64,000 bases of DNA from Thuidium tamariscinum (Eukaryota > Streptophyta > Bryopsida > Hypnales > Thuidiaceae). Of the stretch, positions 1-56,778 are shown piece after piece (the stretch's first letter is position 1; every line of letters begins with the position of its first letter). Made by a program: the position numbers and the translations under genes. The stretch covers positions 20,227,501 to 20,291,500 of the forward strand of contig OX344749.2 in assembly GCA_947034885.2 (NCBI GenBank), written 5' to 3'. The notes beneath the pieces were generated by a model. It did no database searches, had not been told where the DNA came from, and saw nothing but the letters and a program-made list of their open reading frames with translations.

Positions 1-2361
1 ACAACTGACCAACGTGAAGTTGATTGATTCTGCAGAAAACCAACGAACACTTATCAGATGCCTCTTTCAGTGGAGACCCATACCACTGTTACATTAGACT
101 AGTTAGATTATCTTCCAGTACAGTTGAAAACCTAAAAAACTCACCTGTGATTCAGATGTTCCGAACTTGAAAGGTGGCTCCGAGGATGAAGGTAATCTCC
201 TTTTACTACCAACAGCACCAGAGGTGCCAGAGCCTTTCACTTCCGCTAAAAAGGCAGCCTTGCTCTGCTTAGCAACCACTGCAAATCCAGACACTCAAAT
301 TAGAATACTCTTGAACTAGATTAGGTACAATCTAATATAAAACTCCATCCTCACATAAAAACAATTCAAGACGTCAGACTGCCTCGATTCTCTTAAATTA
401 CCTTGGGCATCACGGCCATCTGCACTAGCCTGTACCTTCTGTGCTTTGCTTACCTGTAAATTTTCAATAAAAGTATTAAATATTAGCGTTGTACAAGAAT
501 AAATATAAATGCAAAACCAACAAGCTAATAATCATCGACATTCAGATCATTTCTGAAGACTACCCTAACACCAACTATGGAGAACAGTAAGTAGCTACAT
601 TCTCGAATATAGAAATAATAAGGATAATTACCGCATTGAAAAGTTTCACAACTGCTCTCCAGGAAACCACCCCGCAATAGCATGCAACCACAAACAAAGG
701 TGAGACACCAACCCACATGAAGATATACAAAACCGCCGCAAAAACAAATTATATTAATGGTCATACTACAAATTAAAAACGGTACTTGTATAAGCAATTG
801 ATAATACACTTATGGAAACACGACGAGATAAAGCACCTCCTCTTGTCGCCAATTTCACAAGATCTTTTTCTTTGGTATCAGTAAACGATTGCGGGTACAA
901 GTGGGCCTTCTCCCGGAGCTACAGCCACAGAGCACAACCACAGATCAGACTTGTGATGGAGACACATCGTCAGGAATATATATATATACTCTTTTAAAAG
1001 GTTATTAATACTATTGCAATGACAGCATGCGGCACGCTGTTCAATATAGATCAGAACGACTTTGCTCTGCGGTCCTAAGGAACCCAATTTCGCCATATCA
1101 AAGGTATATCCCAGTCTCGCATGATAGATGATAAGATCAGACAGACATGTTCGGTACTCCGACGATAAAACCAATTCATAAACAAAAGTCTAACTCAAGA
1201 ATCAAAATTCCAAAATGGGCGTAATATGCACAATAACAATAATACCTCCTTTTTCTCTATCCTCGTGCCTTTACTGTCCTTGGTTTCTCCGGCGTCTTCC
1301 TCAAGCTTCCTTGCTACGAGTGTCTGCCTCGCTGCCAAGACAGGACCCTGAGACCACAATTCACGGGAGCCTACCAGATTAGGGAATCTTAGCGCATTCG
1401 TAAAATCCACAGGTCAAAGTGATCGACCTCTAGGAGACCTCTACAATTCACTAAATCAGTTAGTCTGCTAATAACACTTCTCCATGCAAAAGGATGGCCA
1501 AGCAAGAAATGCCAAAATACTACAGGACAGATATGAAATTTCACGTACAGTGTCGGATTCCTTCGCTGCTTTGCTCTGAAGAATTTTGCTGAAGGCGCGA
1601 CTGTAGGCAGAAGACTTCGTACTACCACCTTCAGTACCTCTGTCACTGTCACCACCCTCTGAAGCGGAAGGCTCTCCTTCACTCTGGCCCTCCTCTGCAC
1701 CCAAACGCTCATCTTCTTCCTCATCCTCCTCACCCTCACCCTCACCCTCACCCTCATCCTCATCGTCTTCGTCTTCCTCCTCTACCTCTTCCTCTTCCTC
1801 TTCCTCCATCTCCACCGCCTCGTCACCACTTTTCTCCCCGTCGTCTAAAACCCTAACCTCGGCACCGTCGCCACCACTTCCACTCGCTGCCCCTGCACTC
1901 TTCCCCTCGTCCTCCGGCGCCGAAGTCGAACTCGGTCCACCTGCTTCCTTCCACGCGCTCTCAGCAGTATCGTCATCGTCCAACCTCCTGGCGCTTCCTA
2001 TATCACGCAAATCCTCCTCACTCCGACTCCGACTCCCTTCCATGGAATCCCCCTCCGAAGTAGTGTACCCCATTTCCAACATCTTCGGATTCGCAACCAC
2101 CTGCTCCACGAAAGTCTTCATCGTTCCCCCGTCTCTCAGCTCCTCGTCTTCATCACTCTCATTCTCACTTTTCAAATCCGAATCCAACGATTCGTCACTG
2201 TCCACATCGAACAAGCGCAAGTAATCGTCCTTCAGCACGCTCTTGTCGTCGTCGTCGGATCCGTCTTCATCGTTCTCGGAGTCCATGGGCGCCACGACCT
2301 GGGGAGGAACCTCTGCTCGGCGCTTCTTGCGAGCCTCGTCGACTGGCTGTTGCCTGACCAT
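1..2361 (-). CDS. RRP15: RRP15-like ribosomal RNA processing protein, multi-exon, 3' end outside window
   Basis: RRP15 proteins act in the nucleolus in early pre-60S particles and are needed for 27S pre-rRNA processing. Seven minus-strand exons, all with GT-AG introns and consistent phases: 1549-2361, 1246-1347, 837-918, 632-651, 402-453, 145-278 and the start of a seventh at 1-29. The first six give 401 codons. Exon 1 (271 codons) is a Ser/Asp/Glu-rich, disordered N-terminus with a near-pure Glu/Asp run, typical of nucleolar factors. The family core follows: GPVLAARQTLVARKLEE (exon 2), LREKAHLYPQSFTDTKEKDL (exon 3), ATRGVVKLFNA across exons 3-4, VSKAQK (exon 5) and VVAKQSKAAFLAEVK (exon 6). 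Exon 7 begins with a segment ending RWSV, fitting the conserved Trp near the plant C-terminus. The start at 2361 is chosen for its GCCATGG context; the frame stays open upstream only to a TTG. Family call strong; exon 7 less sure. Confidence 0.9.
632..651 (-). other. 20-nt microexon of the RRP15 gene
   Basis: Twenty nucleotides between an upstream AG (…GAGAGCAG) and a downstream donor GTAATT supply the VKLFNA part of the conserved VVKLFNA block; the first Val codon is shared with the last base of exon 3. Exon 3 ends in phase 1 and exon 5 starts in phase 0, so without these 20 nt the frame and the motif are both lost. That makes the microexon nearly certain even though it is too short for ordinary ORF detection. 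Confidence 0.85.
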
Positions 2362-2388
2362 GGCGGACGAGACGAGAACAGACAAGAA

Positions 2389-3160: not shown

Positions 3161-3200
3161 TTTAAACATCCAAATGAGGCACAATTTTTGTCCCACTTAA

Positions 3201-3925
3201 CCCCTAAATGCCGGGCCTATGACCACTGTTTGGAAGCTCCCTTGCCCGTCACTCAATTTGTTACCGTTCTAGAACGAATCATGTCTGAAAATTTTTGTTT
3301 TAATTTTCAGAGATGAAAGTATATGTCTTCTGCACTACACAAAAATTTCAGATTTTTTTGAGTAAAATTGATTTTTAAGAGATTTTTTGAAGAAAAAGTG
3401 AAGAAAAAATCATAGAAAATAGAAAATTATTTCAAAAAATCTGAAAAATTCACCATGTGTGTAAATTATAGTGACAAACATCATGCTGTAAACTCAACTT
3501 CAGTGTACACCTATTTTTAGGATGCACTAGACATTAAAAATGCAGCCAAAATTCAAATTGCAATAAAATAATCATTTAAAAGAATTTTTCCAAAATTCCA
3601 ATTAGAGTAAAAACTATAAGAAAAGACCTTCATTTCATTAGTTGGGCTCAAACTCAAAAAATGTCATTTTTAAGGAGAAATTTTAGATTTACTCAATTTC
3701 TCAAAATACACTAAAATGGCAAATTTTGCCATCCATTTTCCATAATTATTTTTAAATTACATGAAAACAAACATTAGTTAGACTGAAAACTCTATTGAAG
3801 ACTCTTTGCAACTCAATATGATTGGTTATTAAACAAAAAATGGATGAAAAAATACTATTCACCCTGTCTCTTGGCCCTAAGAAGTCATCCAAATGCCACG
3901 AAATGGCGCTGGTGGCGTTCGTGGG
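3201..3925. mobile_element. non-autonomous piggyBac-type element A, TTAA flanked
   Basis: 725 bp between TTAA at 3197-3200 and TTAA at 3926-3929. The left end reads CCCCTAAATGCCGGGCC; the right end read inward is CCCACGAACGCCACC, agreeing at CCC and around AA.GCC. TTAA duplication with CCC termini is the piggyBac signature. There is no coding capacity. The inside is AT-rich with several A- or T-rich runs and does not resemble elements B-D. Confidence 0.6.
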
Positions 3926-3929
3926 TTAA

Positions 3930-5532: not shown

Positions 5533-5536
5533 TTAA

Positions 5537-6504
5537 CCCCTGAACGTCACATCGGACGTTTTTCATACCCTCTTGAAATGCTGTAACTTCAAAGTGTTGT
5601 AACTTTTGCAACCAAGGTCCAAATTTGATCAAAATTGTTGGAAAAGTTGAGCCTTGTCTTCTAGTTTGTATGGTAAAATTTTCAGATCAATCCACAACAT
5701 AATGAGTTTTTAGCAACCAATCAAAGTTTGCAGGTTCTAATTGAGTTCACAAACTGCATTTTAGGGCTGCAACTTCGGGGGCTTGTATCTCTTTCATCCA
5801 AGGTCCAAATTCAATAAAATTTGTTGGGTTTTTTTCCCCTTGAAGTTTAGTTATTGTGGTAAAAATTTAATGTCAATCCAAGTTGTTTTGAATTTTTGGG
5901 AGCAATTCGAAGTTCAAATCCCTACCTTTTTTGGAGAACAATAAACTTCGGCGACTTGTATCTTCTGCATACAAAGTCCATTTTCAATAATTTATGTTGG
6001 AAAAGTTGCGCATAATAGTCTGGTTTGTGTGGCTAAAATTTTATGTCAATCAAAGAAGTTATGAGTTACTGAGAAGCATTCTAGTAGACGGAGTTTCAAC
6101 CATAGATGTGTTTTTTGCAGTTTTTCTTGCTCTTTTCAAGGTATTTCAAAGCCAATTAGTAACCACAATGAGTCAATTCAATGAATTCTTTTTTACCAAT
6201 GTGTTTGTTTACTAATTTTGAATCATTCTATAGTATAAAGTTTTTTCATTTGAGTAGGTTTAGAAATCAAATTTCACCTCCAAATGTGTTTTTATGGAAA
6301 TTTCAGCATTCATTTTTAGCACTAAAACATTATAATCTTTAAATCTATGCGGTCAAATGACTCCAAATTTGATACACATCTTCTACAACATGTTTACTAA
6401 AAGATTGTATGGTTAAGATCTTAATAACTAAGTGATATTTCGATCTAGGACTCTTCAAATGGAACGACGCTTTAGAACCTATTTGGACTTCAGTCCTTTA
6501 GGGG
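5537..6504. mobile_element. non-autonomous piggyBac-type element B, TTAA flanked
   Basis: 968 bp between TTAA at 5533-5536 and TTAA at 6505-6508. The left end CCCCTGAACGTCACATCGG is the closest match to an end of the 5.8-kb piggyBac element (CCCCCGAACGTCCATCGG, right end read inward). The right end read inward is CCCCTAAAGGACTGAAG. The left half holds three loose tandem units of about 180 bp, each with a 'CAAGGTCCAAATTT'-like block (around 5610, 5800 and 5970). No coding capacity. Confidence 0.72.
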
Positions 6505-6508
6505 TTAA

Positions 6509-7534: not shown

Positions 7535-7590
7535 CAAGCATCGTTGAAGTTTCTAATTTTATGTATTATAATCTATCTTAGCTAATTTAA

Positions 7591-8393
7591 CCCCTAAATG
7601 CCTAAGCCTTTTCAAGCGTGTTTTGACTATGAAAAAAGTGCATAGGCTTATAGTTATCCCTAGTGAAGCAAATTGATTTTTTTCCAAACTCTAACTGTAT
7701 AGATGTTTAAAGAGCTTGTTTATTAGTAAATACACAAATTTTGAGCACAAAATTGCATAGGAGTTGTGAGATTATAACGAGAGAAGAGTACATTTCCTAT
7801 ATTTAGTATGCTACCTTTTCCTACAATGTTTTTCAAATTTGCATATAAATTTTGGGGGAGATTGAAGGTAACATGAACAACTACAAAGAGTGTTAGCACA
7901 CTAAAATGCACTTCTAAAAAACTTAATTTCACATGAAAAAATATTAAATTCATTACACAATCCACCTTGCAATTGTTGAAATGCAATTATTTTTTATAAG
8001 TAAAAATTGAAAATAACACCAAATCAATAGTTGTATGTTTAAATTTTCAATAGTGAATATCATGAAAACACTTTCTTCTTTCCATTGGAACCATTCTCAA
8101 AGCAAATGGATATGTACAATTTTTTAAATCTCAAATCAAGTGAAATTGCATAAAGCTAGGAAATGAAGTAAAATTGGCAAGCTTTATTCTTCACTTATGG
8201 TACATGTATGCCTTTGAAGACCTCTCAATAATCAAATGTGTACTTTTTTTAATGAAAAATAAAAGTTTTCAATAGTTAATCCTTAAAACTGCTCGTGGTT
8301 TTTTTAAAAACAGTCAAAATAATTTAACTGCTTGTTCATAAATAAGCCTAAAATTTCAGCTCGACCATATATGGTTGATTGGGCAATTAGGGG
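7591..8393. mobile_element. non-autonomous piggyBac-type element C, TTAA flanked
   Basis: 803 bp between TTAA at 7587-7590 and TTAA at 8394-8397. Left end CCCCTAAATGCCTAAGCC, right end inverted CCCCTAATTGCCCAATC: 12 of the first 13 bases agree. The first 13 bases of its left end equal those of element A. The interior is AT-rich with no supported gene. Confidence 0.72.
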
Positions 8394-8397
8394 TTAA

Positions 8398-8880: not shown

Positions 8881-9384
8881 GTGAGTCATTGCAAGAAAGA
8901 CCTGCTAAAAAGCATAGCGTTTTGCACAGTACTCACTTTTTTCTTTGGAAGTACTATATAAATAGTAAATCAATTTTTTAAAAGGTGAAAAATATGTTTG
9001 ATGTATATATATTTAAGAAGAAGATACCCAAGGAAGGAAAAGCATAGAAAAATTCTCTAAGTAGGAGAATTAGAAAAGTGTTGAATTTCATGAAAATTGT
9101 AACTTTCACTATAGTTTCACATTTTAATTTGTAAAAAATAGGGAAAGTGATTTTTCTTAAAACTAAAAATTTTACATTTGGGAAGACTTTATGGTAAAGG
9201 TATTTCACCAAAATAATGATCCGAAAACTATCTTGATTGTTCAAAAATGTGCACGCAAGGGAGGCCTATTATCACACATGTAGAGGAAAGAGAATAATGA
9301 TTTTTAAAATTTCCTTTAGTAGAAACATGACTACTTAGTGTAGGAATAGAGCCTAGAAATCTGAGCTCTAAATTATTAATTTAA

Positions 9385-9402
9385 CCCTTGAGCGTCACGA
9401 AA
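9385..9402 (+). repeat. piggyBac left terminal repeat
   Basis: CCCTTGAGCGTCACGAAA, directly after the TTAA target copy. It pairs imperfectly with 15140-15157. Confidence 0.75.
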
Positions 9403-9653
9403 GCCCTCTGTGGCCGTAGAGGAGGGTTTCTGGCGTATTCGGAGGGTTTCTGCCTGGATTTAGGGTTAAGCCTATTCGGGAGGGTTGGAGGGCCTGCTTC
9501 AGCGCATCAATTGCCATACTCCGGTGCTCAAAAAACGCAAGAATCTGGGAGTTTAGAGTTAGAATACGTCAAATACCATACGATACGCACAGCACACTGT
9601 ACGCGAGGGGGCCCGGTGATTCAACGGCCCATAGGAGGCGGACATGGCGGCGT

Positions 9654-10274
9654 GTGCTGGAAAGGCAGAGGCGGGAGTGCGCTGGTTTAGGCGGGAGCGG
9701 TGCCATCGGATTCCTCTCCGGCAGAGCAGGTTCCGCAGCTCAAACCACTCTAACAGAATTGCCAAGTATGGACATGAGAATGCGAAATGAGATTTGCTGG
9801 ATGATGGTGCGAGGTAGTAGTACCACATTTGAGGTAGTGGGGTGGATTAGGGATCGTGGGAGGCTTTCTCTTTCACACATGACAGAGGACACAAAGATCA
9901 TTGCTGCGACTGGAAACTACATTAGCAACACTTTGTGGGCGCAATTGTTCATTGCAAGTGGTGGGGGTTTAGGGTTGCATGTGTGCGAGAGGCAGTACAA
10001 GATTGCTGCCCAACATCACGACGCATCCACGATGCAGGTGCCGGATGTACCCCTACATTTACATGAAGAAGCCGAAGTTCTCCGCACTTGGGTAACTGTG
10101 CGTGGAGCAAGTGAGAGGCAGAAAGTTCGCATTGTCGCGCTCTTGGATCAACATTGGATGCAGACCATTGCCCTACCTCCACGGACGTTTCAAAAGCCTC
10201 GAACTCTGGATTACCTGTGGTTGCGATTTCTCTTCCGCAGACACGTTCAGCACATCCTATGGTGGACCACTTGA
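9654..10274 (+). CDS. unknown reading frame in the 5' part of the piggyBac element
   Basis: An open frame of about 206 codons from a GTG; the first ATG in frame is near 9768 and starts MDMRMRNEICWMMVRG. The protein contains ordinary globular-looking sequence (for example GRLSLSHMTEDTKIIAATG and ASERQKVRIVALLDQHW). I do not recognise a family. It could be a 5' exon of the transposase transcript, an accessory protein or captured host sequence. It lies in frame with the transposase start but a stop at 10272 intervenes, so joining would need splicing that I cannot establish. The long overlap with the next frame shows at least one of the two is not used throughout. Confidence 0.3.
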   Translation: MLERQRRECAGLGGSGAIGFLSGRAGSAAQTTLTELPSMDMRMRNEICWMMVRGSSTTFEVVGWIRDRGRLSLSHMTEDTKIIAATGNYISNTLWAQLFIASGGGLGLHVCERQYKIAAQHHDASTMQVPDVPLHLHEEAEVLRTWVTVRGASERQKVRIVALLDQHWMQTIALPPRTFQKPRTLDYLWLRFLFRRHVQHILWWTT

Positions 10275-10359
10275 AGAGAAGAGATTGACCCGCAGGGATT
10301 CGGGAGCGACGTCAACCGCCTCATCAGGGAGATACTCTTCCCGGAGCCTACAATTGCTC

Positions 10360-11409
10360 ATGATGGCGCGACTACGAGCGCAAGCAAGGAAGAAGATCGG
10401 AGTCAGTCACACGGAGGAGGACGGCATCACGAAGAGCGGGGCGGGTGCGCCTGTTGCCCAACATCACAGGGTGACGGTAACGGAGCACACAACGACACCA
10501 TCGGAGACGACCAGCTCGCCTCCTCCACCAAAGCGCCTTCGTTCGGGTCCCATAGACAATCACATTGCCGACAATCTCGTTGCTGCGATAGGGGCGGGAC
10601 CACCAGTGGGTAGTCAGGAGTGTCCGCAGACGCTACCACGAAGTCTGGCGAGCCCGTCATATACGTGGGAGCGCACCAGCCCTGTGAACGGGAAGGACTC
10701 CGGATTGTTTGTTCTCCACCTCGGATCCACGCCGCAAGCATCTTCGATGTCTCGAGATCCACCCAACAAAATAGTGAATCACAAATTGCTGAAGGAGTTG
10801 ATTCACAAGAAATTGAGCCGTCGTCGAAGAGGCGAATGCGGTGTTCGGGGGGGCTTGCAGGATCAGTCACGCAACTCAACATCCACTAATACTCGAAGGC
10901 GACAACAACAGAAGGGGCCTCGTGGGATGGGAAAGTGCGGACTAAGAGGCCGCCATATACATTTGCCACAGCATGAACACACGGCAAGGGGAGAGGGGCC
11001 AGCAGGTTGGGTGCCACCAACTGTTCAGAGTATCATCCGAAGCCCAATTCGACTTCGGCCACGAATCCGAGAAGAGTGCGCCATACAGGTGGGCCGCACT
11101 AGTAGCCTGCATGGGTCAGACCACGACGTGGAGGCCCGTTTTTTCAGCCCTGGAGCGCCTCCTCCAACGGACCTTATTCCAAATCCCGTGCATTCTCCCA
11201 ATGAACATACAACGTTAGATGAAGGTGTTTTCACGAAGGACTTGCGCGTGAGGGTACAAAGTGAGGTCTTGGATCTCGATCCAAGCCTTGTTGGTGACGG
11301 CAATGGACTTAGTGGCATCGTGGTTTCACGTGTTTACCATTACATCACTGGGACCCCATGTTCGAGTACGATTTTGGAGGTGCCATTGGCAACCGCTCGA
11401 TCCGTGTGA
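10360..11409 (+). CDS. Ser/Thr/Pro/Arg-rich reading frame upstream of transposase, function unknown
   Basis: The open frame runs from 10102 to 11409 (435 codons), with the first ATG pair at 10360, giving about 349 residues. Composition is low-complexity: a TETTSSPP-like Pro run, a KRLR basic patch that could be a nuclear signal, and Arg-rich clusters (RRRRGECG). Such disordered basic regions occur at the N-terminus of some DDE transposases, so it may be an upstream exon. It overlaps the transposase start at 11358 in another frame. An unbroken 1.3-kb frame is suggestive but partly explained by the higher G+C here. Confidence 0.35.
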   Translation: MMARLRAQARKKIGVSHTEEDGITKSGAGAPVAQHHRVTVTEHTTTPSETTSSPPPPKRLRSGPIDNHIADNLVAAIGAGPPVGSQECPQTLPRSLASPSYTWERTSPVNGKDSGLFVLHLGSTPQASSMSRDPPNKIVNHKLLKELIHKKLSRRRRGECGVRGGLQDQSRNSTSTNTRRRQQQKGPRGMGKCGLRGRHIHLPQHEHTARGEGPAGWVPPTVQSIIRSPIRLRPRIREECAIQVGRTSSLHGSDHDVEARFFSPGAPPPTDLIPNPVHSPNEHTTLDEGVFTKDLRVRVQSEVLDLDPSLVGDGNGLSGIVVSRVYHYITGTPCSSTILEVPLATARSV

Positions 11410-14039
11410 GCGACTCAACAGTGGACACAGTGAGGATGTATGGGGATACGGTGCGAACACTCTTCCCGAATTCAGGTGACGGGAATGGCGATGATGCAGG
11501 ACCGTCAGAGCACTTTGAAGACCCTAACGTTGAAGGCCTTGCAGGGGTTGCCGAAGTTGAGCTCCTGGAGGTGTCAGACAATTGCAACAACGACCCTGAT
11601 TGGCAAGGAGAGTGGATTGATTTTGTCTCAAAAGTCGAGGCAGGTGATGATGGGTCTGATTGCGAGCCGGTATTAACGGAAGACCCAATGTTGGAGCTGG
11701 GGTTGTATGACTGCCATGAAGACGTCTCAACTTGGCCATTTCAAAGGGTTTTTGCAAACGATCAATGGCAAGATCCAGCCATTACCCTTGACCATGACAC
11801 CGATAATTTTTCAAGGCCACTGCCAAGACCGACCTCAGCTACTACAAGCCGTCCCACTGAGTATTTCGCACGTTTCTCGCCTCCGCATATTCTCCAACGT
11901 GTTGTGGACGAGACAAGCAGGTTCATTTTCTTCTGTATTCCGCCTTGTGCAATTTCAGTTTTGCTATGTGTCTTTCTGTTCATATCAGATCGCACGGACC
12001 GCCTTGTTCATTTCAGTTTTGGTAGTCAGCATTTTTCCAAACAATATATTGCCTTGGTCGTTTTTGATGCTACACGGCACCCAGTGGCCTTCTTAGTACC
12101 GGTACCTTCATTACATAATGGTATGTTCCTACTTACTTCTATGTCGTGGTGAATGTGATCTAAGTGTGACTTTGCACGATGCAGGTACGCGTCTCAACCA
12201 TTAGTATTGAATCCGGCAGTGACGAATGGGCGTAGTGATTGGACGCTATTGGGGGCCGAGGAGTTGCTTGCTTGGTTTGGCATCCTAATATTAATGGGGC
12301 TCAAAGAGTTTCCCAATATTTGGTGCTATTGGGACCGTCGTGCATTCTACAACTGCCCTCTCATCTCCAAAGCAATGTCACGGAACCGCTTCAAGTCAAT
12401 CGTTCGATGTCTGCATTTGGTTGACAACCAAACGCTTGTCACTGATCGCACGGACCCATCATATGACAAATTGGCTAAAGTGCGTTGGTTGTGCGAGTCC
12501 TTCGTCAGCATGTCCCAGAGTCTGTACAACAATGAAAGAATTCTGACAGTAGACGAGATCATGATTCCGTACAAAGGGCGTTTCTGCAGCATCCGGCAGT
12601 ACATGAAATCGAAACCTGTCAAGTTTGGTGTCAAAGTGTGGGCCCTAGAGAATTCAAAGAGCAGGTGCGAAGTCTTAAAACCATTGAGAATTTTCTATTG
12701 TATTGTGCATGGTTTGGTGTTGTGAATTGAAGTACATGTCAATGATGTCTCTTTGAATTAGGTAAGGCAGTGGTTGCTCTAATCTCATGTGAACATGTTG
12801 TGTTCTTATTTGGGATTGGCTGTGTACCAAATTCTGTACTGTGTTGCTATTGGGGTTGGGTGTGGCCATTGGGGGCTCAACGGTTGTGGTGGTTTGGCGT
12901 GGGTGTTTATATGTGGGGTGGCTGCACATATGTGTCATTGGGGTTGTTGGCGGAAGTGGGTTACTTTGTTTACGTGCGGCATTGCTATCAATTCGGAATG
13001 ACAATTTCGACAAGCTGCTTTGAATTAGGGTCGGAGTTCACTGATTGGTTTCGCAGGGGCTTCACATTCGTGGTATTGTAAGGTAGCAGTCATTTCTTTG
13101 ATTTGGGTAGGCAGGTCTCGATGCTTGTGGCTGACACAGTTGTGGTTGTAGGCTAGGTATGTATCAAACATTATCGTCTATCTAGGGGCCAATGACGCAC
13201 GCAATGAAGGTGACTCTGTCGGAGAAGATGCGGTGCTCACTGCAATTAGTGGTCTTGAAGGGCGCGGCCACGTCATTGTGACCGATAATTTCTTCACATC
13301 CCCTCGCCTCTTCATGGAGCTACTTCGACGCGGCTTCTGGGCTACTGGGACGTGCAGGAAGACAAGGAAGGGATTTCTCGCAAGTCTGGCTGGATTTGCA
13401 AATGCGGACTTACCCGAGCGTGGGCACTTGGTGTTGAAAATGCACTGTAGTCGCAAGATTGCTACGATCTGCTGGATGGATGCTAAACCTGTGTTCCTCT
13501 TATCTACAACTTGCAATCCAATTGGAGAAGACTCGTATGCAGGATGTTGGGTGGGGCGTGAACGCGTGGAATTTCCAACCGGCCTGATACTTTTGCAGTA
13601 CTAAGAAGGGATGCGTGGCGTGGATCTGGTCGACCAACAACGACAGGACTATACCATGCAGTTGCACTCCCACAAGTGGTGGCACCACATCTTCATGTTT
13701 GTATTAGACTCTCAATTGTTGAACTCGTACATCTTGTACGCATGTGATCGCTGTGCCTTGGGCTTACTTGTTCAGTCACGGCTTCTTTGGCATTACAATG
13801 TGGCAGTGGACTTGATTCAGCCTCGAATGGCTGCGGGGCACATTAGAGGCCCAATTCGGAATTTGGCATCAGGAGGTCTTCATTATTCTTTGGGCCACCC
13901 TGTACTACGTCGTCGTTGCGTTGTATGCTTTCGCAGGACTCGCCGAATGTGCCCAGGTTGTTCCGGAATGTTCCAGTGCGAGGGCGCTTGTTTTCTCCGA
14001 GTCCACACACAACGTGGGTACCAAGCGGGGGGGCCGTAG
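11358..14039 (+). CDS. piggyBac (DDE_Tnp_1_7) transposase, three exons, one in-frame stop
   Basis: Exons 11358-11920, 12185-12664 and 13157-14039, joined by two GT-AG introns each splitting an Arg codon (AG|G), total about 640 codons, near the family norm of 550-650. Order: acidic N-terminus; RPTEYFARFSPPHILQRVVD, the piggyBac domain entry; WDRRAFYNCPLISKAMSRNR; VDEIMIPYKGR with the first catalytic Asp (12552); VTDNFFTSPRLF with the second (13284); MRGVDLVDQQ with the third and its partner Asp (13623, 13632); HSHKWWHHIF; then a Cys-rich finger, CVVCFRRTRRMCPGCSG…C…C…H, typical of the C-terminal DNA-binding domain. One TAA at 13602-13604 interrupts the frame between the second and third Asp. 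Frame and similarity continue on both sides, so this looks like a single nonsense change. Start at 11358 is the first ATG in frame; upstream exons are possible. Confidence 0.88.
11921..12184 (+). other. intron 1 of the piggyBac transposase
   Basis: GTTCAT…GATGCAG, 264 nt. Splicing joins …VVDETS-R to YASQPLVLNP, matching the family pattern EETNRYA. Unspliced reading breaks the domain. Confidence 0.75.
12665..13156 (+). other. intron 2 of the piggyBac transposase
   Basis: GTGCGA…GGCTAG, 492 nt. Splicing joins WALENSKS-R to YVSNIIVYLG, matching the family pattern ADSKTGYV..F.VYTG. The 3' site has a weak pyrimidine tract; the protein match decides it. Confidence 0.7.
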
Positions 14040-14559
14040 GAGCGGTGTAACCACAGCAGGAGTTGATTACGACTACGAGGTTGTAGTTCGGCAAAGGGTT
14101 TCGGTTACGTTGGTTGACAGGATGGGAAGAGGGTGACAGATTGGGAGTGCATTCGTTGCGTGTAGCACGGGACTCAATTGACGGGAATGGCTATGAGGGT
14201 GTTGTGAGCGCGTTCGTTGTTTCTGATGTGAGCGTAGAGTGGGTTCACAGAGAGTGAGGAATCCTCCGTTTTTGTGTTGTAGGGTATAGTTCCTCCATTT
14301 TGGCATTTTGATCGAGGCAGTAGGGGAGGGAATATAAGTAGGTACAATTTTCTTGATAGGCCGTGTGTGTGGGCAGCTCCGGAGGCATTCAATATTGCTT
14401 TTTCTATACACGTTTCTCAACTCTTGGTGGCCCTGAAGTGGAAGCACACAAACAATGTGTAACCGATATTATGAATCGGAATTCATCAATTTGATTGACA
14501 TTTGCGTGATTTGTTTGCATTGTGATTAGCAATGAACTTGACCCTTAATTGTCTGCCTT

Positions 14560-15128
14560 GTGCTATTGGTGACTGCACGCTCAGCGGTTCAGCGTGTCCT
14601 GATGTGCGGAAGGGGTGCGGTTGATTCGTTACCCTCCCGCCATTTTCAAAGAGGACTCTACGTGGACGGCCTACCTAGCACGTTGTCGCGCCGTTGTACA
14701 GGCGCACCTTCGGCCACAACGGCAGCAATGGCAAGCGTATTTTCAACAGACCCCGTGCATTTCCGGGCGACCCGCCTCCCTTGTCTATTGATTGGACATC
14801 GCCGAATTAGCTTCGTGGAGTCTCCGTTACGCGTGCAATTTTTTCTAGGAGTCACTGACGTCATTGTAAATGAGCCCACCGGAGCGATTTTGCTACTGAG
14901 GACTCTGGCATTTTTCAGAAAACAATTTCGGAACCCTCCCACAGGTCGCCGTTCTTTTTTGTACAACGCTGTGAAGTTTGCTGTCATTGCCGGCACCTGA
15001 CGCTGCGGGAAAATTTGAGGGTTCCCTACGTTCGCACACAATGCAATCGGACCGGCTACAATTGCGCCCGAACATCGAAGGACTTCTTGAAATTCCTGCA
15101 CATTCGTATGCGACGGATACGACGCCAT
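14560..15128. other. 3' region of piggyBac element with opposed unknown reading frames
   Basis: Two overlapping frames of similar size: plus 14560-15000 (146 codons) and minus 15128-14658 (156 codons). The minus one starts with a true ATG only 30 bases inside the right end, so its promoter would have to lie in the terminus or in flanking DNA. Neither is recognised. The G+C-rich composition could produce both by chance. It may be a captured fragment or merely the transcript's 3' region. Confidence 0.25.
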
Positions 15129-15139
15129 AGAGCCAGACC

Positions 15140-15157
15140 CCGATGGACGTTCGGGGG
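15140..15157 (-). repeat. piggyBac right terminal repeat
   Basis: Reads CCCCCGAACGTCCATCGG inward from the TTAA at 15158-15161. It is closest to the left end of element B (CCCCTGAACGTCACATCGG), linking the non-autonomous elements to this one. Confidence 0.75.
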
Positions 15158-15474
15158 TTAAAGTACTCCCCAGTACTAAAAACCCCTAAACCACAAAGAG
15201 TGACAAATTAGAGAACTTAGAATTTAAATATAAAATTATTTTTGAAAATTTCTGAAAAATAAGGGTTTTGATAACTATCAAGTCAGCCATCTTCAATAAA
15301 AATTTCAAGTTCAAAGAGTTAATGCTTCAAAAGTTATAGCTCATGACAACTCCGTCACTCAAAGTGTGACGCCAAATAGTACAAGTTTTTCTTGCATTCA
15401 CCCTTGCGTTGTAGACTTAACGTCAAAAATACATTTTAAAAATACAACATATGAAAATCGCTTAATCATATCTA

Positions 15475-18463: not shown

Positions 18464-20160
18464 GTCAATCTTTAGCTTCAAAAGTTGTATCTATAGTGAG
18501 CTTTATTGACAAAGTACAAAATAAGATTTCATCCTAAAGAATGTGGAGAAAGAGCAATTGGTGCTTTGTGGAGGATGTAAGGCAGCAAAAGATTTCATAT
18601 AGGGTTCTTCAAAAGAAGATATAGCAAGCACACAAGCATCTGAAGGCAAAAGCACCCTTAGAAGCATCCTCTAAAGGTTGTCTCCAACTTCACAAAGAGC
18701 TTCTTGTAGTGTAGTCATTTACAATAGATGAACTATTGATAAATTCCTATAATAAAGTTCGTTTGCAAGGAGGTGTAGAGTGCTCTATGGTAATTCTCAA
18801 TATAGTGATTTAAATTAACTCCTAGGTTTGTACAAAATTGAGGATAAGGAAAAATTTCCAACCTAACACTTTCAATAGATAAGATTATTTTTATTATAAT
18901 TAAACCAAAGTTGATGACTTATCCGATTGATATATTCTAAATTCCATAGCTCAAGCTTTGTTCCTCAACTTTTTGTCAATCTCACCAACCACTCTAGTAC
19001 AATCTCCAATTGTTTTTTTTGCCCATCTCTATAGCATCTCTAATTGATTCTACCTTCACCACCATCTTTTATTTTTCAACCAATTCTTTGTAGCATCTAT
19101 TGATTCTACTTTACAGATTCTCTCTAGCTTCCATCAATTGAACTTTAATGTCTAATTTTCTTCCATTGAAACACCTTTATCCTCACATTCTACTCATTAT
19201 TCTTCCAATCAACAATAGATTTTAAATTTTATTCACTTTTAACTCTAGGCGTAATTATACTATAGCAATTTCCAATTGTTTTACTATAGCACATGCACTC
19301 AATCCCGGCACTATTGATTTGACAATTAAATCAATCTTCATCAATTGATAATGCATAATTGCAACAAAAGAAATTTTTTTATCAACTCACACCCTGAGTC
19401 CAACATTCTCTACTCAAATTATCATCCAAAATTATCCACTTACAAACCAAGATCTATCGGTCGACCTAATACTCCACATCATAAATACACACATCCATTA
19501 ATTCATTCCAATTTCAATACATAGACCACAAAAGCTTAACACAATAGAAAATCACATCTCCCTAACATAACCATCCATTGCCACAAAGTAGATTCTAACA
19601 ATAGAAAATTCATCACATTAAGCAACTAAATTTAATTAAATCCAATACACACAAATGCCAAAGTTTCAATTAATCTTCACATTATATTTCACCACGAATT
19701 TACAATTGTTCTTCACTTTCTTTATAGCCACTCTACTAATATCTATTGATTCAACGGTACCACAACCTAACACCAGTACAATAGAATCTCGCTCGCTACT
19801 CACACTAAATTAAATTGACACAAAACTATAGATCTTCCTATTGTCAACCTCCACCACACAAGATTGACAAGAACTCTAGATTCCTCTTCTAGACAGGCCA
19901 CCACTACTACCTGACAATTCTTTTTTACTATTGATTTATAGGCTCATAACCGCTACAATAGTTCACACCCCATTCATCCTTTGTTATCATCCATAGATAA
20001 AATTCTATAGTTAAAAACTTCAAAATCATTGGTAATAATTGAATATTAACCTCTAAATACCATAGCATTGTAGAAAATTTGAAAAAGTAACACAAAATGG
20101 AGCCAACACCCAGTCTTCCCTATAGATCTCATACTATACTTCTACTAAATGTGGAATGAA
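18464..20160. other. intergenic sequence, pyrimidine-rich on the plus strand
   Basis: From about 18900 to 20100 the plus strand is rich in C/T/A with few G, with words like ATTGATTCTAC recurring at 19035, 19095 and 19745. No coding signal. Probably decayed retroelement or satellite-like DNA. Confidence 0.3.
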
Positions 20161-34380: not shown

Positions 34381-37300
34381 TACAACCTTACTTATGGTTT
34401 TGGTCAAAATTTTGTATAATAACCTATTGGTTTTCATCATTTGCTTATTGGCTACAAGGTGATAAAAAAACAAATTTCCTTTCCTTAATTATGAAACTCC
34501 TTTTAAATTGTTGAATAAATTCAATAAGGAAATGGATACATTCTATCATTTATTGATTTCTTAGAGCATTGAAATCAGAAAACTATATTCTCATAAAGAA
34601 AACAAGAAAAAATTTGTACATCACATTTCTTGAAAGACATGGCTTCTATCCATTTAGTGGCATAATCTATCGCAACTAAAATGTTTTGTTTTTCTTTCAT
34701 TTTTTGGAGCAAGAGATATAGGGCCAACAAAATCTACATTCCATTTTTTAAAAGAGGAAAGGGCTACTAAGAAAATAAAAGGGATAGTAGGAGGATGAAT
34801 TTTTTTTCATGGTTTAGCAAAATTATTAGCATCTTTAAATAGACATAAATGCCAATATCTTGCCAATAGGACTTTTGAAGTCATGGTAGAAGTAAAAAAA
34901 TAACTACCATGAAAATCTCAATGACATCCAAATAAAAAATCTTCATTACACTTTGGTACATACATTTTTTTTATATCTTATTTCAACCTTGTTTATATAA
35001 ACTATAAAGTGTCTCTAATTAAGCTGTTAATTTTTTTCAATTTTTTAAGTAATTGTCTTTATTTTAATTCATAATCCCTTGAAAAGTGTTGATGGATAAA
35101 TAATTCAATATGCCACTATATTCCATATCATGACATTTATTGCAAATGATTGGGCATCTAGGATATCATCATCTATAGAATGAATAGAATTAGTATATAC
35201 TGTTTCTAGTCTCAAAGGTGGTCAACATAACTATGTTATTTTCTAGGTCAAACTATTATTTAAAAACAAATCCTTGTATCAAAAATATTGTAATTTAGAT
35301 TTTGCTTTAGTCTATACTATAATACTAGTATAGGAGCTCTTTTGAAGAGGAAAGGTGTAAATAGTCTATTATTACTTGACTAATGTCACTTTCAATTAGA
35401 ATATAGAATTCAGAAATAATGTATATGATTAATTTTTGGACTTTACAATACAATAGTACTCTTATTCCTGGCCTGTAGATAACAATTTAATTCTCAATCC
35501 ATTACCAATGCTATTGATTGGATGTATATTGTCCCACTCCTACTTAGTGTTCTATAGGGTGGTGAAATATTTAAACAATGATTCAACTTCACGCAATTTG
35601 TCGCACAAGTATATGCTCTATTACTTCATGAAAATACCAAGATAATACTTTGAAATAATATGCACATAGCTTTTTTAATTACTACCTTTAATTTATATTA
35701 TAGTCTAATTGGCCTAGTTAATGTTTTATTTTATAGAGCCTATCTAATTAAATTTTAATGCAAGATGTGTATTGATTCTATAAAACATGTCAAATTCAAT
35801 TAACATGCAAAAAGTATGAAGTTAAGAATTACTACCCTCATTGTTATCATAGTCAATTTTTTCTTTTTTAGTTTTATACATGTATTTAGGTCAATTTTTC
35901 CAATGCACACATAAAAATTTAACTTATACACAAATAGAGATTTAATATTTACTTGTACCGAAACATCAATTGTAAAACTTCATACAATTAATCATAAAAC
36001 CATATAAAGAAATGCTTACAACAATAGATGCAATAGTCCTATATACATGCAAATGGACCTTATGACTATTGTTTAGTATCTAAGACTATGTCTCAAGACC
36101 TATAGCTATTGAATAAAGCAATAGACTATTAGCATAAATTATTCTTGATTAAATAGATAAAAAATGATTTTTTCATAAACTTATTTTGAATATAATATTT
36201 ATTGATCATTGTTCTATAAATATTTGATGCAAAATATATCAAATATTCATATTATTCATAGTTAAAGTTGTAATATTTTGCAAACCATATATAATAATAA
36301 TAATAATAAAATTTATTGTGATTTGAATTTTCAATATTTTCTACAATACACCAATTATAATTTTAGTATATTTTATATTGAAGTTATTATTAAAGGATTT
36401 TATATACTTAATTAAAAAATATTCTTATTAATCATTTATACCAATAGTATATCATACATATGATCTAAATTTGTAAACCATAAGGAATTGTCAAGTTTTG
36501 AATTATAGAGATATGACAAAGAATATTTTCTATTGTTTATCAATTTTTTTACCAATAATTATTTAATATTTTTATGATTTAAAAGATATTATTGTTATAT
36601 TTATACTTATTATTATTTTAAAATCATTATGAATTTTTCAAATCTTAAATTAAATCAATATTTGAAATATTTGAAATATTTAAAAATACATCACAATCTA
36701 ATTGTAAATATTAAATTTTAACCTAATATATACTTTTAAAAATCTATCCAAAATTTTTAATAAGTTGCATCAATACTTGTTATTGACTTATCTCCCTCCA
36801 AGATTAATGCACTTTAAATATCTTTAAGTGTACTTTAGTATTGAGATACTACTCCAATTGAATTGATTTTTAATTATCATTGAATATTTGGATCCATGGG
36901 CCTTAACTCCCAATTCCACATCAATCCAACTATTTTTTGTTGCTTAAACCATTTTTACTTAGAAACCTTGTTATAATCAAAATTTACACAATTTATTTGA
37001 CTTATTCTTTCATTCAACTTGCACTTTAATTTCAATGTGCATTAGCATTGTGGATAAATTGAAATATATTCAAATTTGATGATAATTTTGTAGTGTTTAA
37101 AAAAATATAGATATACTTATTTCACTAACAAAGAAATATTGTCACTGGTTTACAATAAGTTCAAAAGTTATTTCAACAACCAATGCATACAACAGTGTTA
37201 CCAAAGCTATTCTATCTATCATTCAAGTAAGAAGCATTATGTCTTACGAAAAGGTAATTATATTTCAACTTTTACAATGGTTAATAATTTGCTTGATGAT

Positions 37301-39428
37301 GGAGTTGTTTTACATAAATAATCATATGAAATAAAATTTCTACAATAAAGTAATAATCCACATTACTTGATTCACAAGAAATTCAAATTGATTTCAATGT
37401 AAGTTTCTAAAAGACAATAAAAACTTCTAAAACAATGCTTGACAATAAAGCTAAATTAGCATTAATAAAAAGTATGCCCCCTAGTTATAGAACTATATAT
37501 TAAAATGTTATATTTATAATTCAACATAACGATAAATTGTTTTAGTGATTGTTTCTATAAAGTAAATAATTAGAATAACATTCAAAGTTTAACAATACAT
37601 TGTATACAATTCAATAAAACTAGTCTATATATTAAATTAAAGTCAATTAAAATCATTCCAATAAATACTAAGGCAAATGAAAATTTAAATCAAATTATTA
37701 ATTTATAATTTAAAAAATCTAATAAAAAAATGTATTGAGAAATTCAAAGCCTATATCAGAAAGTGTATGCATATTTTAAAATTTAAAAGTATTAAAATAA
37801 AAAATTATAAAATTTTACATTAAAATCCTTAGAAATGTAAATACAAATTCTAATATTTGCACAAAATTGGTAAAGTGTGATTTTAGTTGACTTAGACAAA
37901 TAAATTGTTAGAATCTAATATTTAATTTAAAAATACAAAATTAAATAATAAATAAATAAACTTTGATGAGATAATTTCAATTGCGTCAAAGCTTCATTTT
38001 AGGTTTTAATATATAAATTTTTAAATATTTTCTAACAAAATAAAACTTTCTAGTTACTATAAAATACATTAAATTTATCAAAGTACACAGACAAATAAAA
38101 ATGGCATATGGTTGTAATTACTACAGGAATTAATTTTATTAAAAAATCTGAGTGTCATTTTTTTTCTAAACTTGCAAATAATTTACAAAGTTTGAAGAAT
38201 TTTTCTTACATATATACTTGAATATATCAACAATTCAACACTATTGAATAAATCAAAATAAGTAATAAAAAATTGAAAAGTGAATCAACTTTTTATGCAT
38301 TGAGTGTAATTGCTTATTGTAATTGATATACCATTGTCATGTTAGTAATCATTAATCATTTATGATAAAAAAAATTACTTTAAAATAAATATAATACATA
38401 AACAAAAATTATCATTAACAATACAAATAAAATGATCAAATTTAAATAAATATGTTTATATTAATATTAATATCAATCTTTTATTATATACATTGTAATT
38501 TTGATTTACTGATGATAAATATTTGGATTGGTAATTTTGAATATTTTATTCTAGTAATAAAATAGAATACTATTCTAGTAATTTGGATTCAAAATTTTAA
38601 TTTAGTGATTATATTTTTCAAATTTTTATAATTGTACAATGACAATAAAACAATTTCATATATTATATTGTTGGAGTCAATAAAGATTAAGTAAATAACT
38701 ATGTAGTATAAATATCAATGCTCAAATCTACTTAAAAATATGAATAGAAAAGATCATGATGGAAATATTGTACAATTTTAGGTGAAGAGATTGTTTAAAT
38801 TCTTAAAATATAATTATAGATTCATTATAAAATGCAAAATTTTGATTTTAAAAATTACATTGGCCATAGTATACAAAAACAAATCATTTAGAATGTAAGA
38901 AAACTTTTATTTAATTATCCCAATACTATGTTTTAAAAATCACTAGAAATTATATTGGTTGATGTTTGGAAGTATAAAAAAAAAATTATTTTATATATTA
39001 TTATTTATAATAGTATCATTATAATATATTATATTATTTACCAATAGACACCTCAAATCTTAAAATGAATAGTAGATTATCAATTTTTTGTAAATATAAA
39101 ATATAACATACAAAATTTAGTGGGGATATTTTATTTGTTTAAAGATATCTAAGTTTGATATTTAAACCATATAAATATTGAAAGATATAAAATGAAATTA
39201 CAATAATTATAAAAAAAGAATCTAATCGCCATGACTATCTTGTGGATCTATAGTGTACTAATTTTTTTTTAATGGAATTCTTGTAGGTCTTTCCATTTGA
39301 GCCATCAATTTAATGCTCTACTCTAGTTTTCAACAACTTTTTGTTTATAAGACCCACTCTCAATGTATAATTTTCCATTGAATTATCTCTTGTGTTAAAA
39401 TGAAGGGTCCTATGAACAATGGTACCAA
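34381..39428. other. 5-kb extremely AT-rich gene-free region
   Basis: A+T rises further from about 35.6 kb. It contains a short (TAA)n microsatellite at 36290-36309 and many poly-A/T runs. No gene, RNA or bounded element recognised. Short frames such as 37139-37321 have no support. Confidence 0.4.
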
Positions 39429-44724: not shown

Positions 44725-47700
44725 CCCCCTTCAGCTACATAATTGAATCTAGTTTGCAAAAACATATACAGCTTTGATGAACATCCCCTTCCTCATGAGC
44801 TGATGTAAGCTTCTGAGAAAAAAAACAGTTTTTATTCGCCCCCTTGCTTTGTGTTGGAAGAAGTGGTATCATTTAGATTTTGTATACAAGTTTGGTGCTT
44901 GACTTTGGGTAAAGAATATGTTAAAATGTCAACCCACATTGTTGACGTTAAAGTATACTCAGGTTGAAAAAGCTTGGCTTGTACTTTCTCACGTAGAAAA
45001 TGAAAGTGAATGTCAATATATTTAAACCAATCATGAAACTTTGGATTTTTACTTAAAGTGATAGATGATTGGTTATCATAAAAGATTGTACTAGGAATTT
45101 GAAGAGAGTAACCAAATTTTGATATAAATGAGTGCAATCATATTAGTTCCTTGATGACTGTTACAGCAGTAATGTATTCGATTTTAATGAAGGATAAAAC
45201 AGCGATTGGCTGCTTACGACTTTTCTAAGATAACAAACATGATGAATTAAGTTGAAAAAGGTAATTGGAGGTGAAATGTCAAGTATCAAGATTGCTGAAC
45301 CAATTTGTATCACTTCATCTGCATAACTTGTGAGGATTAGAAGATGAAGGAACAACAAAATACATAATACCATGCTCAAAAGTACCATGCAAGTAATAAA
45401 AGATTTTCTTGGCACCAAGCTAATGAATTGGAGTAGGATCTTGTATAAATTGGACTAAATGATTGACTGAATAAGCCAAGTCTTAGCGCGTACAAGTTAC
45501 AAGATACTGGAGACTTTCAAGTGCTTGTTTGTAAAGCACCGATGATCGCATCGAAAAGATCACTATGTTGAGATTTAAAATATCGTATTCCAAATTCTAA
45601 AGGAGTTGCAACAGAATTAGTTGTGGTCATATTAAATTCAATGAGAAGATCATGAATAAATTTATCTTGTATTAATGTTAATCTTTTGTTAACTCTATCA
45701 TGTTGTACTTGAAGACCAAGAATATATTCGATCTCTTGGTTGTCAATCATGGAGAATTGGTGCGTGAAAAGAGCTTTTGTAGTTTCGTAGCCGATAACAA
45801 TTCCAGATTTTCATAAATTAAAATGAGATCGTCAATATAAAGGCCCAAATATAAAAGAGAGTTAATAGCACATTTCATATATACATTTGTATCAAAAATA
45901 CATTTTGAAAAACATTGGCTTAATAAAAAGCTATCAAAGAGGTCATACCATACACTTGGAGCATGTTTTAGGCCATAAATTGATTTTAATAGTCGACACA
46001 CGAGGTGTTCTTGACCAAATTGAATGTAACAATTATGTTGTTGAATATAAATTTTTTCTTTGAGGATTAATGGGTCATAAATAGTTGTGAAAATAAAAAG
46101 GATTTGTAAAAAAGTCATTTTAAGAACAAGTGAGAAAGTATCAAAAAAATCAACACCTGCTTCTTGAATAAAATCTCGAGCAACCAATCTAACTTTATAT
46201 TAGGATAAAAAACTGTCAAAATTAAACTTGCGACAAAATATTCATTTTGTACTAAAATTATAGACTTGTTAGAAGGAAGTTTGATGAGGATTCAAGTTGT
46301 TGTTGTTTTTTTATCAAAGATTGGTATTCAACATCCATAGTTTGTTTCCAATGAATAATATCCAACTATTCAGACTTTGAATAGGTTTGGGAATAGAGTA
46401 AGGATCACCAGCATGAGTTATGAAAACAAAAGAGAATAAATTTGCATTACTGAACTTAGTTGATTGCCAAGTGCCTTGAATTTTACGATGGGATGTTCAT
46501 AACTGAGGTAAAAGATCAGATTGCTGATCTTGTTGTAAATGACTGTGTTGATGAAGAGACAAGTCAAGAATAGGGATTTGAAGAGGTCCAAATGGCTTAG
46601 TAGATGAAGATGTATCAGGTGAAGGTGTGTCTGGGCTTTGAAAGGGGCCAAAATCAACTTTAGGAAGGATAGGTGGAGAAAACTTCTTAATATTAGGTGG
46701 ATTTGACACGGATTAAGGAAACGGACAAGAAAGTGGGTTTAGAACATTATAAAAGCCTTCAGAGACTAGCAAAGAATTAAATTTGAAACTTGAAGAATTG
46801 AATTGAAGCAGAGTGTCTTTGGAAAAATAACATCGTGACTTATAATTATTTTATGAGAATCTAGATTATAGAAACGATAATCTTTAACTCAATTAGGTTT
46901 GCCATAGCCAATGAAGATACATTTTAAACTTTTGTGATCAAGTTTCTTGTATCGATGGCCAAGTATGTGAGTATATGCTACACAACCAAATATTCTTAAA
47001 TGAAACAGATTAAATTGAGTACCAGTCTATAATTGATGAGGGGTTGTATTGTTTAAAACATTGGTAAATGATAAGTTTTGCAAATAATATGCTGTGGCAA
47101 TAGCTTCGGTTCAAAAGGAATTGGATAAATTTGCAACCTACAGCATTTTGGGAGCAAATTCGACAAGTATGTGGTCCTTTCGCTCGGACATTCTATTTTG
47201 GGTAGAATTACATGGATTTGAAAATTGATGTTGAATGCTAAATTCAATACAAAACTGATTGAATTGTATAGAAGTAAATTCCCCCCATTATTAGAACAAA
47301 GAAATAAGATCTTTTGGTTAATAAGAATCTCAACAAGTATTTTACATTGTGTAAAAGTGAATGATATTGTAGATTTCTTTTGAAGAAATTTAACATAGAT
47401 ATACCTTAAAAAATCATCAACAAACAAGAGAAAGTATAGAGTACATCCTAAAGATGAAGTGTGTTTTGGTTCACAAAGATTCCTATGGATCAAAGCAAGA
47501 ACCTAAGTTGTACTTGTTACAAAATCAATTGAATAAGTTGATTTAGAGTATTTTTCAAGAAAACAACTTTTATAAATAGACAAGTTAGAATAAATAGAAG
47601 GTAGTCTATCTACTATAGATTTGAATTGCATAATATGTAAATAATAAACATTAATATGTCCTAGGTGACAATGCCAAAGTAAAGTGGTTGTATTTGGCTT

Positions 47701-55120: not shown

Positions 55121-56778
55121 GCCTCTCCTTCCCCTCACTTCACAACCATTACAACTATATTCCAAACTCTTTATACCATTATACAACCTTACAACCATTA
55201 CATCATCATTTTCATGCCATTTGAATTTTCATTGCACACTACTTAAGCCCTTATTTTTCAAGCTCTTGCACACGTGAAGATTGAAGACATCCTTATTGTA
55301 TTTGGTATTGTCCCAATTCACTATCATTTTGGCTTCAATTTGGCTTCAATTTGGCTTTCAATGAGTCATTTCTTGGTTTGCATTTCTCATTGAAGACAAT
55401 TCTTTTAAGTCTAGTTTTTAAATACTTGAGTGTTTGGTTCATCCCTCATACAAGTTTTGAAATAATGATTCACTTGTTGAAACTATAATACTTTGTGATT
55501 AGCCTCTTCGCGGAATTTATAGCCTAGACTAGCTTATTGAGAATCTCCCTCAAGTCTAGCCGAAGAATTGTGGTACCATTTGTGGAGTTTTGCAATGTTA
55601 GAAAACTCCATAAACAATTTGTGGCAAAGTTTTTGCAAAATTTGCTTTAAATTTGAGGTTGATCCTTCATTACGGCGAAGCTATCACCAAATTTTTGAAA
55701 AATTGAGATAAAAACTTTTCTCCAAAGTTTGGATAAAACTCTTTTCCAAAGCTTGAGTTTTCCTTGAAAAACAAGTGTTTATTTCATTAAACTTTTTTAT
55801 GTTGGTTTTAAGTTTAAAGGGTTTCCATTAAGGAGGCCTAAAAAGATGTGGCGAGCAACGGCCAAAAAGTTTATAATTAGCCAGCTAGAGCCAACTCCAG
55901 CAAAGCTAGCCCCCCAGTCGGTTGACACTAGCTGGGTACCACTAGCGGCCAACAACCCATAGTCGGCAGTCATAGAGTCGGAATCAGTGAGAGCTCTCAG
56001 CTAGTTTGGCACTCCAATTATTAGATACTCACACAAATTCAAAACCTTATAGATGAAGATGATGCCCACTAGGGCCCCCTTCTCCCTTTTTTTTGGAAAT
56101 TTTGAACTCTAAATGTGATTTTTAAGTAAACAAAGTGAGAGGAAAACTAATAAGAGTTGAGCCTTTCCTTGAGGAAATTAGAATCCAGAAGCCAGGGAGG
56201 TAGAGAGAAAGAGTAGATAGAAATTTCCTCCAAAGTATAGTATTTTAATCTTCTCTTTGAAAACCAAACTTCCATTTAAAATTAGGAACGAGGTCCTTTA
56301 ACACTCCAAAATTTCAGATTTTGGGAGGACCAAGGCCAAAATTGCAACAAAGAGCCTTTAGCATCTGAAACTAAAACAAACAACAAGAGTCAGATCATTG
56401 AGGGAGCCAGTCAGCTTGTGATGTGACCGGCATCCCCCTTTTAACCTCAGTTGACCTCACATTGGGATCCAGCATTCTCTCAAGTCTCCTTGGGAGCCTC
56501 CAACACCCTCTCAATCCTAGTCCAACACAAAAAACTCGCCTCATTCTAGCACAAAAACTTGCCTTTTCCTAAAACACTTTCATCCTAGATGCATTTCTTC
56601 ATACACATATAGAATACTAAAACCAAGAGTAAGAGAATGAAAATACTTGTGAGTGAAGGAAAGAGATGAAGGAGAATATATGTTGACTTTTTTAACCAAT
56701 ATTTTAGTTGATAAAAGACAAGGAGAAAAGACGAGAAAAAGAATAGTTTGACTTAGAGGAGATTTAGAGGCTTGTTAA

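Follow-up and report, generated by a model that had tools for sequence, protein, structure and literature searches.

The moss Thuidium tamariscinum carries a piggyBac-type transposon at positions 9381-15161 of the window, by which the whole analysed stretch of 64,000 nucleotides is meant (contig OX344749.2; C1:20227501-20291500 of an assembly of 363.2 Mb in 19 contigs). Probably this is a decayed, formerly autonomous element in a moss genome with a large, partly recent piggyBac radiation, and in its lineage two coding regions overlap. The element has piggyBac-type ends flanked by TTAA, and its transposase is homologous to known piggyBac enzymes. Both coding regions, the upstream open reading frame ORF1 and the transposase frame ORF2, are recognizable by their codon pattern and overlap. 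Near-identical copies of related elements reside at different TTAA sites. The piggyBac superfamily itself is known; the conserved ORF1 upstream of the transposase in the moss relatives is new.

Ends and composition of the element

The features of the element are listed below with the evidence for each. Contigs of the assembly are denoted by C and related loci by L.

9381-15161, plus strand: whole piggyBac-type element (sequence; end pattern recurs genome-wide)
9381-9384 and 15158-15161: TTAA target duplication at both ends (sequence)
9385-9396, plus strand: left terminal inverted repeat CCCTTGAGCGTC (inverted-repeat pair)
10041-10349, plus strand: ORF1 conserved domain, ~103 residues (kept in relatives; frame-0 codon pattern)
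10272-10274, plus strand: TGA interrupting ORF1 in the window copy (sequence and relatives)
10363-11920, plus strand: ORF2 (transposase) exon 1 (ATG at nucleotides 17-19 after FPE, in the +1 frame; kept in relatives up to the frameshift)
11242-11420, plus strand: putative Tudor/chromo-like module of ORF2, disrupted by the frameshift (alignment, model of the L023 counterpart, weak Foldseek matches)
11921-12184, plus strand: intron 1 of ORF2, GT..AG (relatives break at the matching place)
12185-12664, plus strand: ORF2 exon 2 (PF13843, E 3.3e-34; first catalytic Asp at 12552-12554)
12665-13156, plus strand: intron 2 of ORF2, GT..AG (relatives break at the matching place)
13157-14039, plus strand: ORF2 exon 3 (second Asp at 13284-13286; further Asp codons at 13623 and 13632; TAG at 14037-14039)
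13602-13604, plus strand: in-frame TAA in exon 3 of ORF2, upstream of the third catalytic Asp
13917-14006, plus strand: C-terminal Cys-rich finger in ORF2 exon 3, C-x2-C-x7-C-x2-C-x5-C-x3-C-x4-H
15146-15157, minus strand: right terminal inverted repeat CCCCCGAACGTC, reading inward (inverted-repeat pair)

The element is 5.8 kb in size and its ends are TTAACCCTTGAGCGTC and TTAACCCCCGAACGTC. The TTAA duplications (9381-9384 and 15158-15161) and the matching inverted ends starting with CCC, which had been reported in an initial annotation of this DNA, are present. Repeat detection free of assumptions also gave these ends (20-nt inverted repeat, 80%). At four other TTAA sites the first 56 bp of the left end recur with 82-84% similarity. 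Genome-wide, the end pattern TTAACCCYTGAACGTC has 205 occurrences compared with three for the reversed control, which excludes chance. A genome search with the full-length element, the copy-number check proposed earlier, gave a match over the full length only with the element itself; over the transposase exons, the DNA identity to the best relatives is 72-74%.

As had been noted, the G+C content of the element (0.509) is above that of its surroundings (0.319 in sampled flanks). This difference had been taken in the initial annotation to fit either a possible transfer or a young element. As an inference from composition this is not supported, since resident relatives have the same composition (0.506 in a family of 11 copies, 0.485 and 0.483 in L023 and L024, with flanks of 0.35-0.43). 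A G+C content of ~50% is a trait of the piggyBac family in this genome, and the contrast is thus no argument for transfer. On the host side, a probable host ORF in the window has a G+C content of 0.547 and the LEAFY exon one of 0.463. The ratio of observed to expected CpG is 0.88 in the element compared with 0.40 in sampled flanks. As the element retains CpG, great age is not required; this is the single result that leans towards a young element.

The transposase and its lesions

Two GT..AG introns restore the continuity of the protein, and several relatives break at those places. The joined transposase matches piggyBat (PDB entry 9c0f, E 1.3e-30) and Trichoplusia ni (T. ni) piggyBac (6x67, E 2.1e-24). 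PF13843 (DDE_Tnp_1_7) matches in three pieces (E 3.3e-34, 1.1e-11 and 9.5e-5), the third of which scores 22.3 bits and lies marginally below the 22.4-bit cut-off. Together with the TTAA and the CCC-starting ends, these matches bear out the assignment to piggyBac. The catalytic Asp residues align in register with those of piggyBat. Their codons (12552, 13284, 13623 and 13632) can all be read as previously stated, but the TAA at 13602-13604 precedes the third Asp in the window copy. The Cys-rich finger is also present; in this region the HMMER alignment with piggyBat scores a weak 1.2 bits.

Compared with L023, L024 and L028, exon 1 has lost one base between 11354 and 11355, which shifts its frame. 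The spliced transposase of the initial annotation stands with its two introns and three exons, but its exons left out the upstream coding region (~10041-11354). Exon 1 had been taken to start past the frameshift, as the open reading frame does, and the frameshift was thereby hidden. There are three lesions (TGA 10272-10274, the deletion 11354/11355 and TAA 13602-13604). Thus, the description of the element as near-intact has to be rejected. Judged by its sequence, the window copy is unable to make a full transposase. A transposase acting in trans may still be able to use the ends of this copy, which may now be a passenger at best.

A conserved coding region upstream of the transposase

The ORF1 domain shows 54-72% identity within the window lineage and is still recognizable in the distant lineage of the 11-copy family. 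None of seven members has a match in Pfam, and a search against PDB sequences gave nothing convincing (best E 0.96). The predicted model, based on 18 sequences, is helical with a predicted local distance difference test score (pLDDT) of 91.3 and a predicted template modelling score (pTM) of 0.83. A fold search with this model yielded no match at E ≤ 0.001 among PDB or viral models. ORF1 appears to encode a new upstream domain of ~100 residues that is confidently modelled as helical and for which these searches revealed no named relative. A Ulp1/SUMO-protease identity of the upstream ORF, considered on the basis of HW..L-like and D.GLFVL-like strings spotted by eye, was rejected: there is no Pfam match and the strings are not kept in the relatives compared.

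ORF1 accompanies many transposases of the genome. Among 659 candidates from the PF13843 search, 116 were scored; all of these lie above the cut-off and have open frames of 408-1,214 amino acids, and the genome therefore holds at least 116 transposase matches. Two ORF1 queries gave 148 and 149 scored places in overlapping sets, and the combined list contains 224 places (148 plus the 76 of the 149 that are new by coordinates). For 73 of the 116 scored transposases, an ORF1 match is found on the same strand up to 9 kb upstream, and the controls (opposite strand, downstream) gave none. Within 4 kb, 71 of 116 have an ORF1 match, whereas 200 random placements gave 0.155 on average and never more than 1.

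Overlap of ORF1 and ORF2

In the window lineage, substitutions peak at the frame-0 third position over the first 300 nt (0.50-0.59 vs 0.16-0.41) and at the +1-frame third position from 525 to 750 nt (0.59-0.60 vs 0.16-0.36). The pooled table comprises 11 overlapping pairs from six sequences. The ORF2 ATG is found as NATGG, 16 nt past FP[EDN] or a degenerate form of it, in all seven members of the window lineage, and the frame-0 residue overlapping the conserved NATGG varies (N, D or H). At 17 of 20 junctions the first ATG past the ORF1 domain falls in the +1 frame. From these patterns ORF1 and ORF2 of the window lineage are read as two overlapping ORFs, with ORF2 in the +1 frame. Leaky scanning to ORF2 was considered as well. 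The 5,376 nt of ORF1 domains contain 54 ATG vs 87.8 expected by base composition, a mild deficit that is not decisive.

Several observations weigh against this reading or narrow its range. By the two queries, 43 of the 116 scored transposases have no ORF1. No reading frame is favored in the interval from 300 to 525 nt, where an intron is therefore formally possible. The phase was counted for the 71 transposases that have an ORF1 match no more than 4 kb away; of the 47 elements with open frames shorter than 900 amino acids, just 28 show the +1 phase. In L048, L050, L051 and L052, ORF1 and the transposase look separated by an intron, and in L045 a stop lies exactly where the ORF1 domain ends. 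The arrangement of ORF1 and ORF2 thus differs between lineages.

Alternatively, +1 ribosomal frameshifting or splicing could join ORF1 and ORF2 into one fused protein, i.e. a single transposase with an added N-terminal domain. All 24 elements with open frames of at least 900 amino acids (12 distinct classes) have the transposase in the +1 phase from ORF1, which favors such a fusion, as do the continuation of an open frame 0 far beyond the domain in many elements and the four loci with an apparent intron. On account of the 24/24 phase, a programmed +1 frameshift had been the preferred explanation and was demoted to a rival after 20 junctions had been examined. The conserved ORF2 ATG is at odds with a fused protein. 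Furthermore, L046 and L049 have a +1-frame stop a few codons ahead of this ATG, and no shared slippery site was seen across the junctions examined. A fused protein is therefore regarded as rather unlikely, and two overlapping ORFs are preferred.

The N-terminal region of ORF2

The region of ORF2 ahead of the DDE core is long and partly conserved. For a 72-residue stretch of L023 ORF2, aligned with five relatives, a small β-barrel is predicted (pLDDT 81.6). The top Foldseek matches of this model are 6if4 (probability 1.00), 53BP1 (0.99) and the chromobarrel of RBBP1 (0.97). Most of the 50 matches listed are Tudor or chromo domains, and eight are clearly other proteins. None of 543 Foldseek matches reaches E ≤ 0.001 (best E 0.097), which speaks against the assignment. 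The model and the kind of matches suggest that the N-terminus of ORF2 carries a Tudor/chromo-like module. An excerpt of PMC11707139 describes the N-terminal regions as non-conserved and predicted to be disordered.

Relatives and non-autonomous elements in the moss genome

In the 11-copy family, copies of 5,096 bp are reported at 100% identity. Two compared members differ at 2 of 5,096 positions, have TTAA ends and lie in different flanks. L023 and L024 are 98.5% identical, again with TTAA ends and different flanks; L041 and L042 also show the TTAA target. The DDE_Tnp_1_7 core is found in relatives as well. The aligned transposases have 40-72% identity to L041. Protein alignments were made without L003, L005 and L006, which contain stop codons. 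The tree was built from two animal enzymes and 21 rows of this genome; L030 and L035 are partial rows, and L023 and L024 contribute little beyond the last exon. The window element and 11 others form a clade of 12 rows with 100/100 support, all of them from this genome, which contains several well-supported lineages. The two animal references have very long branches that meet, and the tree is thus silent on a deeper origin or an ancient transfer.

Three pairs of transposases with equal or nearly equal scores lie in opposite orientation 6-14 kb apart (C8:23933884-23942167, C8:19067897-19081635 and C9:19502615-19519018). These may be inverted duplications, local hops or assembly folds.

The TTAA-end pattern TTAACCCCTRAANGNC has 11,590 matches in the genome compared with two for the reversed control, and one end of the 11-copy family, read inward, is TTAACCCCTAAACGCC and of the same type. 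Among 100 places listed, neighbors at most 1.2 kb apart comprise 15 convergent cases (spans of 627-932 bp), one divergent case and two on the same strand. Mostly convergent neighbors are expected of elements that end in inverted repeats. Going by the TTAA and the end sequence, the 11,590 ends would belong to elements moved by piggyBac enzymes.

An 811-bp TTAA-ended piece of the window (7587-8397, ends TTAACCCCTAAATGCC and TTAACCCCTAATTGCC) gave 1,643 first-look candidates in the genome. Its 40 scored copies, the window copy included, are 89-100% identical and nearly full length. This piece is a high-copy non-autonomous element.

Short non-autonomous elements are also present at L037 (6188-7098), L038 (from 2376), L039 (5378-6845, with an insertion) and L040 (2742-3590); their first 56 bp are 82-84% similar to the left end of the window element. 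In the window, facing pairs of TTAACCC ends at 3197-3929, 5533-6508 and 56775-57726 (733, 976 and 952 bp) are candidate non-autonomous piggyBac-like elements. By composition ~7.5 TTAACCC/GGGTTAA sites are expected compared with 15 seen in the window, so single pairs are possibly due to chance.

Host identity and origin

The assembly contains one LEAFY locus, with two exons on C4. Its C-terminal exon matches 4bhk with E 6.8e-71, and 100 of 106 residues agree (counted by hand). 4bhk is LEAFY of Physcomitrella, and its Asp at the key site is of the moss type. The moss-like LEAFY indicates that the host is a moss. The earlier statement that a piggyBac element is present in a land plant agrees with this and with an excerpt of PMC6890710, where 1,230 PiggyBac repeats are tabulated for a fern.

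A recent horizontal transfer of piggyBac into the plant, from an animal or another source, would account for a G+C content unlike the surroundings. This composition is common to the resident relatives, however, and the range of 40-72% identity to L041 and the several well-supported lineages amount to a deep diversity within the genome. Moreover, the viral contigs contain no relative; a viral source was also dropped on this ground and because the ORF1 model lacks a viral fold match at the threshold given above. Recent transfer is therefore very improbable. Assembly contamination, which the initial annotation had named as a possible objection, finds nothing in its favor apart from composition. 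The window lies at 20.2 Mb within a contig of 54 Mb, scored relatives are located on every one of C1-C10, and the moss-like LEAFY belongs to the same assembly. Contamination is not supported and its probability is negligible. A resident, decayed piggyBac element remains the best explanation.

Other features of the window

The probable host ORF (306 amino acids, 1468-2388, minus strand) is rich in Asp, Glu and Ser and perhaps an exon of a host gene. An ORF of 150 amino acids at 45747-46199 (minus strand) resembles, by eye, a remnant of a Ty1/copia reverse transcriptase. One kilobase (19001-20000) has a GC skew of -0.556, and the three kilobases at 36001-39000 have a G+C content of just 0.18-0.21.

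Proposed mechanism and significance

The DNA shows the structure of the elements, the constraint on their coding regions, the dispersal of copies and their recent origin, whereas the biochemical roles of the two proteins are inferred. The ORF2 transposase would pair the element ends and insert the element at TTAA by cut and paste. ORF1 may act as an accessory protein of transposition in end binding, assembly or nuclear delivery. By reading chromatin, the Tudor-like module could bias the choice of insertion sites. The thousands of TTAA-ended non-autonomous elements would be mobilized in trans.

As a wider and still tentative proposal, mosses may host a distinct two-protein branch of piggyBac, with a helical ORF1 accessory protein, a transposase with a chromatin-reading barrel and, in many elements, a constant +1 phase between the two overlapping ORFs. 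Such a branch would have been active recently and would have given rise to thousands of TTAA-ended non-autonomous elements in one moss genome. If so, the moss radiation supplies natural piggyBac variants for comparison, a transposon family that as a rule has a single gene has acquired a second one, and a major origin of the repeats of a moss genome can be named.

Comparison with known systems

Widely used as a genetic tool, piggyBac is known mainly from animals, with one transposase gene. The moss element shares with the superfamily (T. ni 6x67, piggyBat 9c0f) the TTAA duplication, short inverted repeats starting with CCC, the DDE_Tnp_1_7 core with aligned catalytic Asp residues and the C-terminal Cys-rich finger. 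It differs in its size of 5.8 kb, its introns, the extra upstream ORF and the long, partly conserved region ahead of the core. In excerpts of the literature, beetle piggyBac elements are described as 2,074-3,465 bp long with a single ORF, and plants as occasional hosts, e.g. red algae (PMC12732532); animal piggyBacs are single-ORF elements of 1.23-9.51 kb, and the occurrence is given as 'insects, fungi and plants' (PMC10813416) or 'fungi, plants' (PMC8086355). In the excerpt of PMC10619864 the term occurs merely as 'piggybacking'. Among the open PMC papers listed in the literature searches, no title or abstract beginning dealt with native moss piggyBacs; subscription papers, Repbase and preprints lie outside this scope, and an earlier mention may thus exist.

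PIF/Harbinger and other two-gene plant DNA transposons likewise encode a second conserved protein beside the transposase. PIF/Harbinger elements are defined by a 3-bp TWA target duplication and a transposase family of their own. The moss element has a TTAA target and a piggyBac transposase (PF13843) instead. Furthermore, ORF1 has no Pfam match, and hence no Myb-like domain is seen, in contrast to PIF/Harbinger.

Chromoviruses are retrotransposons that bear a chromodomain. Like them, the moss element possibly uses a chromatin-reading barrel for the choice of insertion sites. Unlike them, it is a DNA transposon, and its putative module, assigned by the model and a weak fold match, is located N-terminally in the transposase.

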